From Natronolimnobius sp. AArcel1 (lineage in GTDB: Archaea; Halobacteriota; Halobacteria; Halobacteriales; Natrialbaceae): a stretch of 64,000 bases of DNA. Of this stretch, positions 3,625 through 16,503 are shown one piece after another (position 1 is the first letter of the stretch; every line of letters begins with the position of its first letter). The stretch spans positions 248,001 to 312,000 of the forward strand of contig NZ_JAAKXY010000004.1 of the NCBI RefSeq assembly GCF_011043775.1, in the 5' to 3' direction. The notes under the pieces are model-generated. The model saw only the letters and a program-made list of their open reading frames with translations, did not search any database and was not told the origin of the DNA. Position numbers and translations under genes: made by a program.

Positions 3625-4017
3625 ATGAAGTACAACCTTCAAACCGGGTCGCACACGGTCTACGCGCTCCAATATCACTTTGTGACCGTTACGAAGTACC
3701 GTGCGACCATCCTCACCGAAGAAATCGCGGAGCGTATCGGTGAGATTGCGAACGAACTCTCAGACGACTTTGGGGTAGGAATCCAGAACGTGAACGGTGG
3801 GAGCGACCACATTCACATCCTGTTCACCGCGAAACCGACCACCGACATGACGAAGTTCATCAACTCGCTAAAGGGCGTCACGTCGCGGAAGGTTCGCAGT
3901 GAGTATCCCGAAGTGAAACAGACGCTGGAAGATTCGTTCTGGCAGCCGGGGTACTTCCTCGCCAGCACCGGGCAAGTGAGCATCGACGTTCTCATGGACT
4001 ACGTGGAGGATCAGTGA
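3625..4017 (+). CDS. tnpA: IS200/IS605 Y1 (HUH) transposase TnpA
   Basis: A 130-residue single-strand transposase that excises and integrates the element through a 5'-phosphotyrosine intermediate. The HUH motif is HIHILF (His62, His64). The likely catalytic tyrosine is Tyr126 in DYVEDQ, matching the Y-x-x-x-Q helix of IS608 TnpA. Length is normal and the gene looks intact. It shares TGATG with tnpB, so the two are translationally coupled. Confidence 0.93.
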   Translation: MKYNLQTGSHTVYALQYHFVTVTKYRATILTEEIAERIGEIANELSDDFGVGIQNVNGGSDHIHILFTAKPTTDMTKFINSLKGVTSRKVRSEYPEVKQTLEDSFWQPGYFLASTGQVSIDVLMDYVEDQ

Positions 4018-5240
4018 TGTCGGCTACGGCGACTAAGACACTCCAAGCGACGCTTGCCCCGCCGACGGCTCACAAAGAGGAGAAGCTACAGGATACACTC
4101 GGGACGTACCGCGAAGCGTTGGACGATGCCTTCGAGAGTGGCGAGGACACCATGACTGGCGTCAGTGACGTTGTGACGCCCTACGACCTTCCGTATCAGG
4201 CGAAGGCTGCTCTCTGCAACTACGTTCCGAAACTCCGGAAGACGTACAACGCTCGTGAAATCGGCGACGAACACCCGCTTCGTCTAACGAACCAAGCTGC
4301 AAAGTTCGACCACTCGAGCGAACGTGAGCACGAGTTCACGTGGTGGGCACCGCGACCGGGACGCGGAACGAACTTCTGGATTCCGCTCCGAATCAATCCA
4401 GAGCAAAAATCGCTGTGGCACGATCTCCTCAGCGAGGACGCGAAGGCCGGACAGATTCGACTTCGGCGTCATCGGAAGAACTGGGTACTTCACGTCACTG
4501 TCGAGTACCCGATTAAGGAACCGACGATAGACGGTGACACCACGCCAGTCGGGCTTGATATCGGTGAGACTGCGCTAATTACGGCCTGTGGCCTTAAGCG
4601 CGGTACACCGACAAGACCCGTTCTCTGGAGTGGCAAGCGTGCGAAACACCTCCGAAAGGAAATGTCGACCACGCTTCAGCGACTACAGGAACGCGATGCT
4701 GAATGGCGCATTGACGAACGGTTCGACTACTACCAGAACGCTCTCACGGATATCCTCGAGAAGGCCAGCTGCGAGGTCGTCGAATACGCCGAGTCCTTCG
4801 AGAACCCGGTGATCGTGATGGAGGATCTGACGCACATCCGTGAGAATCTGGACTACGGGAAGTACATGAACCGTCGACTCCACGCATGGGCCTTTGCACG
4901 GCTTCAGGGTCGTGTTGAGGACAAAGCGAGAGACGCCGGTATCCCAGTCGAATACGTGAATCCAGCCTACACGTCTCAGACGTGCCACGAGTGTGGACAC
5001 ATCGGAAAGCGGGCTTCACAAGCAGAACTCCGATGCACGAACGACGACTGTCATATCTCGACGTTTCAGGCGGACATCAGTGCAGCAGCAAGCATCGCTA
5101 AGCGGGTTGACCCGTGGGGAGAGAGTGTTCCTTGGAAATCGGAACGCAATGACTCGCCTCGGGATGGGAGCGGTAGTGACACCGCCGTAAGACCACCCCA
5201 AGCCGAGCGCACCTACGCAAATGACGCTTGGAGCGTATGA
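4017..5240 (+). CDS. tnpB: RNA-guided nuclease TnpB of the IS605 element
   Basis: A 407-residue TnpB (OrfB, IS1341 type). The RuvC residues are present: Asp181 in GLDIGET, Glu269 in VIVMEDLTH and Asp353 in FQADISAAAS. The zinc finger CHECG...C...C starts at Cys323. All catalytic positions are intact, so the protein should be active. TnpB uses an omegaRNA from the right end to cut the donor joint and favour retention of the element. The start is the ATG overlapping the tnpA stop; a GTG one codon earlier is possible. Confidence 0.93.
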   Translation: MSATATKTLQATLAPPTAHKEEKLQDTLGTYREALDDAFESGEDTMTGVSDVVTPYDLPYQAKAALCNYVPKLRKTYNAREIGDEHPLRLTNQAAKFDHSSEREHEFTWWAPRPGRGTNFWIPLRINPEQKSLWHDLLSEDAKAGQIRLRRHRKNWVLHVTVEYPIKEPTIDGDTTPVGLDIGETALITACGLKRGTPTRPVLWSGKRAKHLRKEMSTTLQRLQERDAEWRIDERFDYYQNALTDILEKASCEVVEYAESFENPVIVMEDLTHIRENLDYGKYMNRRLHAWAFARLQGRVEDKARDAGIPVEYVNPAYTSQTCHECGHIGKRASQAELRCTNDDCHISTFQADISAAASIAKRVDPWGESVPWKSERNDSPRDGSGSDTAVRPPQAERTYANDAWSV

Positions 5241-9493: not shown

Positions 9494-9775
9494 TTGCGCC
9501 CACGAACGTAAGTCAGTGAAGATTCGCGCTCACAGCCCCAGAAACGTTACTGTGGCAACACGACGGTAAGACGGCGTCTGGAATAATGGCCTAATTTATC
9601 GACACATGCATATAGGGCGGCCAGCGCAAGCACAACGACCACCCACACCCGAGTACGCATTTACATGCGAGCGCCGAGACAGTCTGGAAATCGAAACTGA
9701 TGAAACACGGATTAGCGACCGTTGCAAAAGTTCTAACTGTGCTTTTTGCCGAGGTAACACCGTAACAGTCTGCCC
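9494..9775. other. Intergenic region, tgtA to acidic protein 1
   Basis: Nothing coding was recognised. The last 100 bp resemble the region before the second acidic paralogue (shared GTAACAGTCTGC and CGTTTTAG), so the promoter was copied with the gene. Confidence 0.5.
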
Positions 9776-9782
9776 GTTTTAG
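9775..9782 (+). promoter_or_regulatory. TATA-like element of acidic protein 1
   Basis: CGTTTTAG lies about 30 nt before the ATG and is preceded by GTAACAGTCTGC. The same pair of motifs precedes the paralogue at 11709, which supports a functional promoter. Confidence 0.5.
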
Positions 9783-9809: not shown

Positions 9810-11267
9810 ATGGCTTCACGACCGCAGCAAATCGGTGTCGTATTCGTCGCATTGCTCGTTGCACTCTCGAGCCCCGCGCTCGCAGGTGCAACCTCACAAA
9901 CAGCAGCCGACGGACCAAGCGCAACGCTTGAAGACACAGAGGTAGAGACGCTCGAACTCGAGCACGTAACAGTCGAGGACGCGACCATCGAGGAACTGAA
10001 CGTCGACGAACTTGACGTCGACCAAGAGGAACTCGATGAACTCCTCGACGAACACAACGGCGCAGATGACGCTGACGATGAAGACGACGCTAACGACAAC
10101 GGCGTCAACGAGGCCGACGACGATGACAATGGCCTCGATGACGAAAATGACGAGGCTGACGACAACGGCGTCGACGATGCAGATGACGCCGAAGAGGTGA
10201 CCATCTCGGACATCGAGATCGAACACCTCGAACTCGAGGATGTTTCCGTCGAGGACCTCGAAATGAACGGTGACGATGTCGACGAGGCCGACGATGACGA
10301 CAACGGCCTCGACGATGAAGATGAGGCTGACGATGAAGACAACGGCGTTGACGAGGCCGACGACGATGATAACGGACTTGACGATGAGAACGACGAGGCT
10401 GATGACGACGACAACGGTGTCGATGACGAGGATGACGCGAACGACGAACACGATCTGATCGACGAAGATGCTGACGAGCTCACCGTCGAAGAGCTCACCA
10501 TCGAAACGATGGATGTCGATCACCTGACGCTCGAGGAACTGACCGTTGAGGACGACGAAGCTGACGACCTCGACGACGAGGACGAAGCTGACGACGACAA
10601 CGGCCTCGACGATGAAGACGACGCTAACGACGACGACAATGGCGTTGACGAGGCTGACGATGACGACGAGATGAACGACGAGGATGACGAGGCTGACGAC
10701 AACGGCCTCGATGACGACGAAGCCGACGAAGATGACGACTACGACGAGGCAGACGGTGAGCAGATTGACGAACTCACCATCGAACAGTTCGATGTTGAGG
10801 AACTCACCGTCGAATCGATGACTGTCGAGTCATTCGAGGAAGCTGACGATGACGAGATGGCTGACGATGACGATGAGATGGATGACGACGAGAACGGTCT
10901 CGACGATGAAGACGACGCTGACGACGAAGACAATGGCGTCGACGAGGCTGACGACGATGACAACGGCCTCGACGACGAGAATGACGAGATGAACGACGAG
11001 GACGACGAGATGGACGATGACGAGATGGCTGACGGCGAGACCGTCAGCGAAGTCTCCGCCTCCTCCATCACCGTCACTGACGCAACCGCAGAATCCCTGA
11101 CCGTCGGCGACCTCGAGGACCTCGAGGACTACGACGCTGACGACGATGCGGATGCTGACGATGACGACGAAATGGACGTCGATGATGATGACGAGGACGA
11201 CACGGACGAGGATGACGACGAAAACGATGACGACAACGGCATCCTCTCCGTTGGTCTCCTGAGCTAA
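9810..11267 (+). CDS. Exported hyper-acidic protein with five-residue-period islands and DxDxNG repeats (paralogue 1)
   Basis: 485 residues with a Sec signal peptide (VVFVALLVALSSPALAGA, likely cut after ALA). The mature protein alternates two designs. Five islands have a period of five residues, for example LTVEE LTIET MDVDH LTLEE LTVED and VTISD IEIEH LELED VSVED, with hydrophobic residues at positions 1 and 3 as in pentapeptide-repeat or beta-helix folds. Between them lie Asp/Asn/Glu-rich tracts with about 14 DxDxNG-like loops (DDDDNGL, DDEDNGV) spaced 10-20 residues apart, resembling dockerin or thrombospondin-3 calcium loops. No enzyme motif is seen. I infer a calcium-binding surface or matrix protein. 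The codon bias follows Asp/Glu content, so many antisense ORFs are artefacts. Confidence 0.8.
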   Translation: MASRPQQIGVVFVALLVALSSPALAGATSQTAADGPSATLEDTEVETLELEHVTVEDATIEELNVDELDVDQEELDELLDEHNGADDADDEDDANDNGVNEADDDDNGLDDENDEADDNGVDDADDAEEVTISDIEIEHLELEDVSVEDLEMNGDDVDEADDDDNGLDDEDEADDEDNGVDEADDDDNGLDDENDEADDDDNGVDDEDDANDEHDLIDEDADELTVEELTIETMDVDHLTLEELTVEDDEADDLDDEDEADDDNGLDDEDDANDDDNGVDEADDDDEMNDEDDEADDNGLDDDEADEDDDYDEADGEQIDELTIEQFDVEELTVESMTVESFEEADDDEMADDDDEMDDDENGLDDEDDADDEDNGVDEADDDDNGLDDENDEMNDEDDEMDDDEMADGETVSEVSASSITVTDATAESLTVGDLEDLEDYDADDDADADDDDEMDVDDDDEDDTDEDDDENDDDNGILSVGLLS

Positions 11268-11690
11268 GATCAGCGACCCACCAGCCTGACAGAGATCGGC
11301 TGCGGCCCGCAGTGTCGGCCCACCGATCAGTTCCCCCGATTGCATCGGGAGCCGACAGCGATCGACCAGCCTGCACACAGGGAAAGTGTGTCAGAGCGGG
11401 ATACAGCCGATTCGGTTTCTTTTATTGCGCTCCACTCGAGCAGTGGCGACGGCACTGTCAACGCGTGTGCCCGCCGTGGACAGCAACAGCTAGTAATCTC
11501 ATGTTCAGTGACGGGAGCAATAATCACGTAGCAGTCGCAGGCAACACACGAATTACACTTGGTTGTACGTACTCGAGCGACGAGGGCTACTGCGGGCGAT
11601 GAAGCGGTGATTAGCAGGCTGTGGCGGCGTGCCAACTACGCTTTTCGTCATGATAATCCTGTAACAGTCTGCTCGTTTTAGCCGGGAGAG
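11268..11690. other. Intergenic region between the acidic paralogues
   Basis: About 420 bp without a convincing gene. The short frames on both strands lack family similarity and codon bias. The last 80 bp are similar to the region before the first paralogue. Confidence 0.4.
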
Positions 11691-11708
11691 CAAAGTACCG
11701 TAGAGCGC

Positions 11709-13004
11709 ATGGTTTCACGATCTCAGCAATTCGGAGTCGTCGTCGTGGCACTGCTGGTCGCGCTTTCCGGTGGCCCCGCACTCGCCGGTGCAACAGCGCC
11801 AGCAGCCGACGACACGAGCACAAACGCAGCACTCACAAACGTACAGGTCGATACACTCGAGCTCGATCACATCACGATCGAGAACGCGACCATCGAGGAA
11901 CTGAACGTTGACAATTTCAATGTTGACGACGAGGAACTCGAGGAAGAACTCGATGAAGCGGACGATGAAGACGACGATGCAAACGATAACGGCGTCAATG
12001 ACAACGACAACGACAACGATGACGCCGCGACCGACGATGATGACAACGGCGTCGACGACAACGACGCCGACAACGGCGAGCAGGTGACGCTCTCCGACAT
12101 CGAGGTCGACCACCTCGAGTTCGATGACGTAACGATCGACGACCTCGAGCTCGACGAAGATGAAATGGATGATGAGATGGATGATGACGAGGCCGACGAC
12201 GAGGACAACGGCCTCGACGACAACGATGACGCAGCTGCGAATGATGAGGACAACGACGAGAACGACGACGCAGACGAGGCTGACGATGACGACAACGGCG
12301 TTGACGACGAAAACGACGAGGCGGACGGACAGGACCTGATCGATGAGGACGCACAGGAACTTACCGTGCACGAACTCACCATCGAAACGATGGACGTCGA
12401 TGAGATGACCATCGACGACCTCGAGATCGAAGATGATGACGGCATCGTCGACCAAGTCGGCGACTTCTTCGAGGGACTGTTCAACGGTGACGACGACAAC
12501 GATAACGACGCGACCGACAACGACGAGGAGAACGACGATGCTGACGCAGATGACAACGATGAGATGAACGATGAGGACGAGAACGACGACGCGACCGCCG
12601 ACGATGAAAACGGCGACACCCAGGAACTCGAGGAACTCACGATCGAGCAGTTCGACGTTGAGACGGTGACGATCAACGCGATGACCGTGGAGTCACTCGA
12701 GGAAGCGAATGACGAAGATAACGACAACGACGACGCTGCTGCGGACGACAACGATGCGAACGACGATGACGAGAACGACAACGATGAGATGAATGATGAC
12801 GACGAGGCAGACACCGGCGAGACTGAAACCGTCTCACAGGCCACGGCAACGTCGATCACCATCGACGACGCAAACGCCGACACGGTGACCCTCGGTGACA
12901 CGAGCGAACTCGAGGACGTTGCTGACGACGAAGACAACGACGAGGATGAGATGAACGATGACGACGCAGACGACGACCAGTCGTCCATTGCGCTCCTGTC
13001 GTAA
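11709..13004 (+). CDS. Exported hyper-acidic protein with five-residue-period islands and DxDxNG repeats (paralogue 2)
   Basis: 431 residues, the tandem paralogue of the preceding gene. The signal peptide is nearly identical (VVVVALLVALSGGPALAGA), the first island is ALTNV QVDTL ELDHI TIENA TIEEL, and the C-terminal motif (SSIALLS against LSVGLLS) is also shared. Islands LTVHE LTIET MDVDE MTIDD LEIED and LTIEQ FDVET VTINA MTVES follow. The DxDxNG loops are fewer and more eroded to plain Asp/Asn runs, and one amphipathic segment (VDQVGDFFEGLFNG) is unique. Likely role is the same extracellular calcium-binding or surface function, but this is inferred. Confidence 0.8.
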   Translation: MVSRSQQFGVVVVALLVALSGGPALAGATAPAADDTSTNAALTNVQVDTLELDHITIENATIEELNVDNFNVDDEELEEELDEADDEDDDANDNGVNDNDNDNDDAATDDDDNGVDDNDADNGEQVTLSDIEVDHLEFDDVTIDDLELDEDEMDDEMDDDEADDEDNGLDDNDDAAANDEDNDENDDADEADDDDNGVDDENDEADGQDLIDEDAQELTVHELTIETMDVDEMTIDDLEIEDDDGIVDQVGDFFEGLFNGDDDNDNDATDNDEENDDADADDNDEMNDEDENDDATADDENGDTQELEELTIEQFDVETVTINAMTVESLEEANDEDNDNDDAAADDNDANDDDENDNDEMNDDDEADTGETETVSQATATSITIDDANADTVTLGDTSELEDVADDEDNDEDEMNDDDADDDQSSIALLS

Positions 13005-14867: not shown

Positions 14868-16139
14868 TCAGTACTCGCCGTTGTCGTCGTTATCGTCGTA
14901 GCCATCAGCGTCGTCCTCGTCATAATCGTCGTCTGCATCTTCATCGTCTTCGTCGTAGACATCGTCATCATCGTAGTCATCGTCCTCCTCCTCGACTGGC
15001 TCCTCATCGGGTTCTTCATCTTCGTCTTCGACCGGCTCTTCGTCAATTTCGTCTTCGGCGTCGTAGTCGGCGTCGTCTTCGTGTTCGTCGTCTTCGTCAG
15101 TCACGCCATCGAGGAGGGTGACGACGTCGAAGGAGCGGTCATCATCGTCGTCAACGTCTCCCTCGGTCTCCGGCGGCTCGAGGTAGCCAATCGCGTAGAC
15201 GGAGTACGCCTGCCAGGCCTCGACATCGACTTCGACGGAGGCGACCGGCTCGGCCTCATCGTCATCGTAATCGTCATCGTCGTCGTCGTCCTCGTCATCC
15301 GGTTCAATCGTTTCGCCATCCTCGGCTTCACCCTCAGGATCGAGATCTGTCCCCTCCTGTGGCTCGGGTGCCTCGCCAGCGGGGTAGATATCGAGGGTCA
15401 CCGTCCCGGCCATCGCAGCAGCGTAGCCGGACGGAATCGTGAACTCGAGGTCCTCGAAGATGGGCATCAGTGAATCGCTATCGACGATGTCGACAGCCGG
15501 CGCATCCGGTGATGCGTGGACTGCTCGAATCTGTCCAGCATCCTCGCCGTCGACGTCTTCCTCGACCTCCTCCGGCGTCCGGTCAGCTAACAGGAGGATT
15601 TCGAAGGTTCCCGTCTCGAGGCCATCGTCATCATCGTCATCCTCGACGTCCTCTACATCGTCGTCGTACCCGTCAGCCTCGTCTTCGTCGTAGTCGTCGT
15701 GGTTGTCATCGTAGTTGTCGTCCGCCTCAGCATCGTCATACTCGTCTTCCTCTTCGACGGCACCGAGTTCGCCGATCGCAGCGGCCGTATAGAAGCCGTC
15801 CTCAACAGCGAACTGCTGCTGGGCGACGACTTCGTCCGGATCGCCAGCGGCCGTCACTGTCAGCGAGTAGGTACCGGGGACGATCTCGAGGTAGGGGGAC
15901 ACGTCATCGTACGCGACGTCAGCGAGGACTCGCTGATCGTTGATGTATACGTCGACGTTCGGTGCGTCAGGCGAGAAGTGGGCCACGCGAAGCGCGCCCA
16001 TATCCTCGTCTTCAGGGACCGATTCGGCGTCACGTTCGTCGTCTTCGTGTTCGCTAACACCGAGTACTGTGCCGGATAGGGCAGTTCCCGTGCCGACGAT
16101 ACCGATCGTCTTGATTGTCGAGCGTCGTGAGAGAGTCAT
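14868..16139 (-). CDS. Tat-exported hyper-acidic protein with DUF4397-type domains
   Basis: 423 residues with a twin-arginine signal (SRRSTIKTIGIVGTGTALSG). Two domains of the DUF4397 type are visible, each opening with the signature LRVAHFSPDAPNVDVYIN or IRAVHASPDAPAVDIVDS. They are separated by an Asp/Glu/Tyr tract (residues about 150-195), and a second acidic insertion follows in the second domain. The C-terminal 90 residues are almost pure Asp/Glu/Tyr (DDDYDEDDADGYDDN). DUF4397 domains occur in extracellular archaeal and bacterial proteins of unknown role. It is the third exported hyper-acidic protein in 6 kb. Confidence 0.82.
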   Translation of the reverse strand: MTLSRRSTIKTIGIVGTGTALSGTVLGVSEHEDDERDAESVPEDEDMGALRVAHFSPDAPNVDVYINDQRVLADVAYDDVSPYLEIVPGTYSLTVTAAGDPDEVVAQQQFAVEDGFYTAAAIGELGAVEEEDEYDDAEADDNYDDNHDDYDEDEADGYDDDVEDVEDDDDDDGLETGTFEILLLADRTPEEVEEDVDGEDAGQIRAVHASPDAPAVDIVDSDSLMPIFEDLEFTIPSGYAAAMAGTVTLDIYPAGEAPEPQEGTDLDPEGEAEDGETIEPDDEDDDDDDDYDDDEAEPVASVEVDVEAWQAYSVYAIGYLEPPETEGDVDDDDDRSFDVVTLLDGVTDEDDEHEDDADYDAEDEIDEEPVEDEDEEPDEEPVEEEDDDYDDDDVYDEDDEDADDDYDEDDADGYDDNDDNGEY

Positions 16140-16503
16140 GCAGCACTCGGAAGGGAGACCGTTACCCGGAAAAACCAGATAGTAAGTTTCAGTGAGTGTC
16201 GGGTCGTTTACCCAGTCCGCTCCAGCGTAGCAGTGCCATACCAAATCGAAAGACCGTCCTACAGACGCGTAGTGACACCGAACGCCCACTCGAGTATTGC
16301 TGGCCGACCCACACTATGAACTGCGGCAAACAGCGCCAGTCAGGATTTCCGACGGTCGATTATAGTGTAAATACGTGAGCGACGAGTCGAGTGCGTCAGG
16401 TGATGGACTGTGTGAGTATCGTCTGAAATCTCAGACAGTGTCTCCACACCTAATTACGACCAATTGGAATATATACTATTCTCTATAATAATCCAAGAAA
16501 CTA
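16140..16503. other. Divergent intergenic region
   Basis: Separates the DUF4397 gene from the membrane protein gene. AT-rich patches near 16360 (TTATAGTGTAAATA) and at 16467-16495 (ATATATAC, CTATAATAAT) are probable promoters. No ORF stands out. Confidence 0.4.

Follow-up and report, generated by a model that had tools for sequence, protein, structure and literature searches.

Tandem haloarchaeal genes for secreted proteins with conserved period-five islands and variable hyperacidic linkers

The locus and its two products

The analysed window comprises 64,000 nt of a 4.56-Mb haloarchaeal genome and contains two tandem paralogues, gene 1 and gene 2, both present as open reading frames (Table 1). 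Each product starts with a Sec-type signal peptide (MASRPQQIGVVFVALLVALSSPALAGA for gene 1 and MVSRSQQFGVVVVALLVALSGGPALAGA for gene 2), and neither has a lipobox or an obvious anchor. Behind the signal peptide both proteins show the same layout: five hydrophobic islands, more than a preliminary description of this DNA had counted, alternate with hyperacidic linkers that consist mostly of D, E, N, A and G. Cys, Lys and Arg do not occur after the signal peptide in either protein. D and E account for 246 of 458 residues in the gene 1 protein and for 185 of 404 in the gene 2 protein, and the net charges are approximately −246 and −185, respectively. Elsewhere in the window we noted a TnpB-like transposase ORF with a zinc-finger motif (4014-5240, + strand), for which the listed part shows no obvious TnpA partner.

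Table 1. Positions of the two genes, their upstream elements and the segments of their products in the window
Feature	Position	Strand	Description
Upstream control element, gene 1	9710..9782	+	GATTAGCGACCGTTGCA..TCTAACTGTG..GTAACAGTCTGCCCGTTTTAG; TTTTAG ends 27 nt before ATG
Gene 1	9810..11267	+	485 aa, secreted five-island protein, helix-less paralogue
Gene 1 island 1	9918..10025	+	about 7 pentads
Gene 1 island 2	10197..10271	+	25 aa, 5 pentads
Gene 1 island 3	10479..10553	+	25 aa
Gene 1 island 4	10764..10838	+	25 aa
Gene 1 island 5 and short helix after it	11040..11132	+	
Upstream control element, gene 2	11609..11681	+	motif and spacing as for gene 1
Gene 2	11709..13004	+	431 aa, secreted five-island protein, helix-keeping paralogue
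Gene 2 island 1	11826..11930	+	7 pentads, then predicted helix EELEEELDEA
Gene 2 island 2	12084..12158	+	
Gene 2 island 3	12360..12434	+	
Gene 2 amphipathic helix after island 3	12441..12482	+	GIVDQVGDFFEGLF
Gene 2 island 4	12627..12701	+	
Gene 2 island 5 and short helix after it	12828..12920	+	

The preliminary description had reported a five-residue period with hydrophobic residues at positions 1 and 3, and this period is far above chance. Compared to shuffles that preserve local composition, the autocorrelation of hydrophobic residues at lag 5 reached z = +7.6 for gene 1 and +6.4 for gene 2. It also peaked at lag 10 (z = +6.4 and +5.6) and at lag 15, and lags 4 and 6 were depleted. In the family alignment the pattern h.h.. 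spans all five islands. Positions 1 and 3 were both hydrophobic in 97.5% of 995 family pentads, compared to 91% in haloarchaeal pentapeptide-repeat proteins (PRPs). Across these 995 pentads position 1 is L, V, A, M or I and position 3 is I, V or L; position 2 is mostly T, E, D or S and position 4 mostly E or D.

Behind the acidic tract both C-termini end in short hydrophobic tails (GILSVGLLS at 11238-11264 and SSIALLS at 12981-13001). At least two of V, I, L, M or F were found within the last seven residues in 32 of 43 members, compared to ∼31% of windows taken from the residues ahead of them.

Distribution, conservation and duplication of the family

A protein search detected relatives in 30 of 61 genomes. 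A profile of island 1, searched against 391 genomes of the class, detected the family in 111. By our manual count from the result table, 82 of these are among the 101 sampled Natrialbaceae genomes and the other 29 belong to four further haloarchaeal families. An alignment-based scan of the genome contigs gave 49 loci; a first contig scan with a single window protein as the query had given zero relatives. The named relatives belong to the Natrialbaceae (Natronorubrum, Natrinema, Halopiger, Natronococcus and others); the one exception is a weak match in Halosimplex. Sequence searches against Pfam, NCBIfam and the PDB returned no family over threshold, the plasmid searches did not match the family and the literature searches found nothing on it. 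These secreted haloarchaeal proteins make up a large, uncharacterised family without a name, present in about four fifths of the sampled genomes of the host family and in four others.

The lengths of the islands hardly vary. Islands 2, 3 and 4 comprise exactly 25 residues in all of 41 members from the Natrialbaceae, and island 5 does so in 39, while the linkers at matching positions range from 19 to 116 residues. With lengths and patterns this invariant, a low-complexity artefact can be ruled out, and the islands are not the random variation among orthologues that the preliminary description had allowed for. The alignment points to the islands as the part that evolution conserves and to linkers that vary freely. 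We found no support for a relaxation of constraint in the linkers alone: between sister species dN/dS was 0.147 and 0.095 for the islands and 0.153 and 0.154 for the linkers, where the linker dS is inflated, possibly through misalignment.

The gene order tgtA, one or two copies of the island gene, NUDIX, PadR and DUF4397 is preserved in most Natrialbaceae examined. The DUF4397 gene of this neighbourhood lies at 14868-16289 (− strand) in the window and encodes a secreted hyperacidic protein (E = 9.6e-30) with linkers that are also rich in D and E. Several relatives outside the Natrialbaceae have the gene between two others, whose products, named by eye from the sequence, we take to be a methionine aminopeptidase and an isoaspartyl peptidase/asparaginase. 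The latter adjoins the loci L060, L061, L098, L107, L109 and L110, several of which also adjoin the former.

We then compared the two copies, which were assigned as first or second by gene order. A tree built from the islands has a branch (support 95/66) with the twelve first copies on one side, and this clustering was matched by none of 500 label shuffles. The linkers behave differently: their composition distance averaged 0.38 between copies of the same genome and 0.49 between orthologues (Wilcoxon p = 0.019, 11 genomes). Linker composition thus follows the genome and the islands follow the orthologue. Judged from the island tree, the two copies derive from one ancient duplication. The copies also differ in an amphipathic helix after island 3, GI[VIL]DQ[VI]GDFFEGL: all 12 second copies have it, none of the 12 first copies does, and among the 19 single or other copies it occurs in 15. 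Because the relative L106, which belongs to another family, has a similar helix, the first copy has probably lost what the second kept. It follows from this difference that the two copies probably have separate partners or sites.

A promoter element shared by both copies

Both genes are preceded by a conserved stretch of ∼70 bp that ends in GTAACAGTCnnCTCGTTTTAG, 27 nt ahead of the ATG, and has the form GTAACAGTC...TTTTAG. The element is kept before both copies across seven genera and was found in 38 of 47 upstream regions with at least 17 of 21 core positions. At up to two mismatches the 4.56-Mb host genome contains exactly two copies, both at this locus. A search for the core pattern gave matches in 80 of 121 family genomes; the reversed control pattern gave zero matches in the same 121. 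Genomes with a listed island gene contain 91 occurrences, of which 90 are located at most 400 nt upstream of such a gene and on the same strand. The lone exception (L204, G390:C1:2365000-2368500) is an old tgtA-NUDIX locus from which the gene is gone and where the full element is left beside NUDIX and PadR; that genome has an island gene elsewhere. One more match, in a genome without an island gene (L203), is located ahead of a gene for an ABC transporter, and the conserved upstream part is missing from it. Members from the other haloarchaeal families do not carry the element.

By its distribution this is a promoter element dedicated to the gene family and shared by both copies. It is almost exclusive to these genes, which points to dedicated regulation. 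TTTTA at the observed distance would fit the TATA box of a leaderless transcript, a class that makes up 72% of the protein-coding transcripts in Haloferax (PMC4983044). We also considered the neighbouring PadR gene as the dedicated regulator and found no support for it, as its orthologue persists in genomes without the island gene and is located elsewhere in G006, G015 and G033.

Predicted architecture and possible roles

AlphaFold, run on the gene 2 protein with 42 sequences, predicted beta structure in all five islands (mean pLDDT 56.6, pTM 0.48), so the complete disorder of the islands that would have spoken against the preliminary description was not predicted. Within the islands the pLDDT of 10-residue blocks was about 64 to 91, and most of the linkers, with values below 50, are predicted to be disordered. 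The model of L106, a relative with shorter linkers, gave the same picture (pTM 0.54). The ordered residues amount to 208 of 431 (0.48) in the gene 2 protein and to 174 of 310 (0.56) in L106. In both cases the pTM is close to the ordered fraction, which would be hard to reach with independent island bodies and suggests that the islands are packed into one domain. Furthermore, some relatives have linkers of only ∼5-20 residues between islands 1 and 3, with the islands in register and nearly contiguous. In L060 and L098 islands 1 and 2 are only a few residues apart, joined almost without a gap unlike in the window proteins, which argues for one continuous column. Foldseek comparisons of the gene 2 and L106 models with the PDB and with viral models gave no significant match. 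For the gene 2 model the weak matches comprised the pentapeptide-repeat protein AlbG (E = 8.7) and two enzymes with a beta-helix; loops of 20-60 residues between the coils would hide a true match.

The preliminary description had read the linkers as regularly spaced, cysteine-free DxDxNG loops resembling the calcium sites of dockerin or thrombospondin type 3 repeats. The motif is indeed present, without cysteines, with six strict copies in the gene 1 protein and two in the gene 2 protein. The excess of its loose form over shuffled linkers is only modest: 7 compared to 2.2 (sd 1.4) for gene 1 and 3 compared to 0.9 (sd 0.9) for gene 2. The linker DNA consists of degenerate tandem repeats of 15, 21, 30 and 39 bp, which accounts for the regular spacing in gene 1. 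The resemblance to known calcium sites was not borne out, as dockerin, thrombospondin-3 and EF-hand models are absent among the Pfam matches of the window proteins with E up to 1. The strict motif is missing in 26 of 40 orthologues and the loose form in 20; at least three loose copies were found in only nine of the 40, and one relative, L056, has 17 strict copies.

Other species fill the same linker positions with DEENDV, NET/NAT or ETTT repeats. Natrinema-type linkers are built from NET/NAT/NES repeats, a single protein containing as many as 33 NxS/T sequons where shuffles give ∼6, and the linkers of relatives from other families are rich in ETTT or NET. Across 40 members the acidic fraction and the sequon density were anticorrelated (Spearman −0.87). 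Composition accounts for part of this effect and the species are not independent of one another, so that the p-value has to be read with caution. Acidic and sequon-rich linkers are interchangeable at the same positions. N-glycans of Haloferax bear hexuronic acids or sulphated sugars (PMC3871713), and by analogy glycans could supply the charge that is given here by Asp and Glu. The exchange of acid for N-glycosylation sites would offer a natural experiment on surface hydration in halophiles.

We propose with moderate confidence that the family forms a compact pentad beta-solenoid which displays long hydrated loops, polyanionic or glycosylated, and serves as an extracellular brush or matrix component. 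Both genes would encode secreted scaffold-and-brush proteins whose five islands (about 7+5+5+5+5 pentads) pack together into one small period-five beta-solenoid. This column would resemble that of PRPs, with a bulkier core of V, I and L. The four linkers and the C-terminal tract would be disordered loops that leave the column between the islands. They would form a hydrated, cation-holding layer, polyanionic by Asp and Glu in the window proteins and probably through N-glycans in Natrinema-type relatives. Outside the cell the result would be a surface or matrix brush that holds water and counter-ions around it. The solenoid topology, the direction of the loops and the brush or matrix role are what we infer from the observations above; a matrix or surface role, as the preliminary description had suggested, remains plausible. 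A rigid, strictly conserved core would here be decoupled from freely evolving loops, and one possible use of the design is as a display scaffold that withstands high salt.

A more specific version is speculative, and we would sooner expect it to be wrong than right. It describes an interrupted solenoid, in which cassettes of five pentads (25 residues, invariant in length) sit on a four-sided column and each loop leaves one corner further than the last (5 mod 4 = 1). The four loops would point in four directions, and their polyacid, N-glycan or mucin-like chemistry would evolve freely in each genome under the dedicated promoter. If true, this would be a new kind of archaeal extracellular brush material.

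By analogy, the nearest known haloarchaeal protein in the proposed function would be halomucin (Hmu1) of Haloquadratum walsbyi, which has been proposed as a water-holding shield around the cell (PMC1544339). Likened by description, both are secreted haloarchaeal proteins with negatively charged or glycosylatable tracts. Halomucin has 9159 aa and mucin-like domains, whereas the family members have 360-550 aa and a period-five core.

The preliminary description had also likened the islands to pentapeptide-repeat beta-helices. For the periodicity this likeness held: like PRPs (PF00805, PF13599; MfpA, QnrB1, AlbG, HetL) the islands combine a five-residue period with two inward hydrophobic residues per pentad and predicted beta structure. 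The fold that defines PRPs is a right-handed quadrilateral beta-helix. The consensus of PRPs is (A/C/S/V/T/L/I)(D/N/S/K/E/I/R)(L/F)(S/T/R/E/Q/K/V/D)(G/D/E/N/R/Q/K) (PMC8145042). Only 9.6% of the family pentads fit this broad form, compared to 47% in canonical haloarchaeal PRPs. Position 1 is L, V or M where PRPs have A, and position 3 is I or V where they have L or F. The Pfam pentapeptide model reached at best E = 0.14 and 12.7 bits in the window proteins against a cut-off of 38. All 42 members searched with the Pfam pentapeptide models stayed under the cut-off (best E = 1.8e-4), and L098 reached 21.8 bits. The longest island of the window proteins has seven pentads and the others have about five, and thus fewer than eight contiguous repeats. 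Further differences from PRPs are the secretion, the hyperacidity and the four fixed sites that carry loops of 19-116 residues. The mode of action is probably that of a PRP column, but we do not class the family with the PRPs, because of the low share of consensus pentads, the missing Pfam pass and the short runs of repeats. As a side observation, several canonical haloarchaeal PRPs (L161, L162, L170, L181 and similar) have C-terminal membrane segments that resemble ion-channel pore domains, with YGD motifs.

Alternatively, the family may be a true member of the PRP superfamily that has drifted and acquired long loops at the corners of the column. This is compatible with our proposal, and we regard it as possible though rather improbable. 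The inward hydrophobic residues are spaced alike, Pentapeptide_4 matched weakly in 8 of the 42 members and a profile comparison with haloarchaeal PRPs scored 17.4, above all 60 column shuffles (prob 5.0 compared to ≤0.3). Short outward loops are also known in QnrB1, AlbG and HetL (PMC8145042). Against this stand the deviating consensus, the uniformly subthreshold Pfam matches and an hhalign probability of only 5-10%; convergence is equally possible.

A functional-amyloid-like fibre, which together with the drifted PRP is the main rival of our proposal, seems unlikely to us. Here the islands would stack from molecule to molecule and build a beta-solenoid fibril, with the linkers as its fuzzy coat. 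The design recalls Pseudomonas FapC, which has three imperfect repeats, a linker 2 of 35-259 residues and 'fuzzy coats' (PMC12392863). Both combine conserved beta repeats with disordered linkers that vary greatly in length and sequence, the solenoid ends have no obvious caps and the tandem paralogues could be nucleator and fibre. However, FapC has three Asn/Gln-rich repeats where this family has five islands of 25 aa with a period of five. The Asn/Gln-rich inner core is missing, as positions 1 and 3 are L, V, I, M, A or F and the outer positions are acidic. No secretion or chaperone operon, Fap-like or other, was recognised beside the genes, and at salt below the molar range the very high negative charge would work against polymerisation.

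Less likely still is a secreted polyanionic reservoir for counter-ions or metals, with islands that serve only as an anchor to the S-layer or membrane by means of the helix and the hydrophobic C-tail. The net charge without any K or R, the helix in all second copies and the C-tail of most members agree with such a role, but an anchor would need neither nearly so many islands nor such strong conservation of them, and the first copies have no helix. Polyacid tracts bind divalent cations in bulk, and this, together with the strict motifs of the window proteins and L056, is what speaks for the calcium-gated elastic or matrix protein of the preliminary description, whose DxDxNG loops would bind calcium and compact the linkers; we consider it very improbable, because a motif that most orthologues lack, that no calcium-loop family in Pfam matches, whose spacing tandem-repeat DNA explains and which sequon- or ETTT-rich linkers can replace is not the conserved mechanism of the family, and we found no evidence of elasticity. 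The scaffold with hydrated loops remains our preferred reading.

Variants of the layout were also encountered. L060, L061, L098, L109 and L110 have an extra C-terminal Ig/CARDB-like domain, and L036:8660-11107 (− strand) encodes a variant of 815 aa with an additional island-4-like segment and Cys in the linkers.
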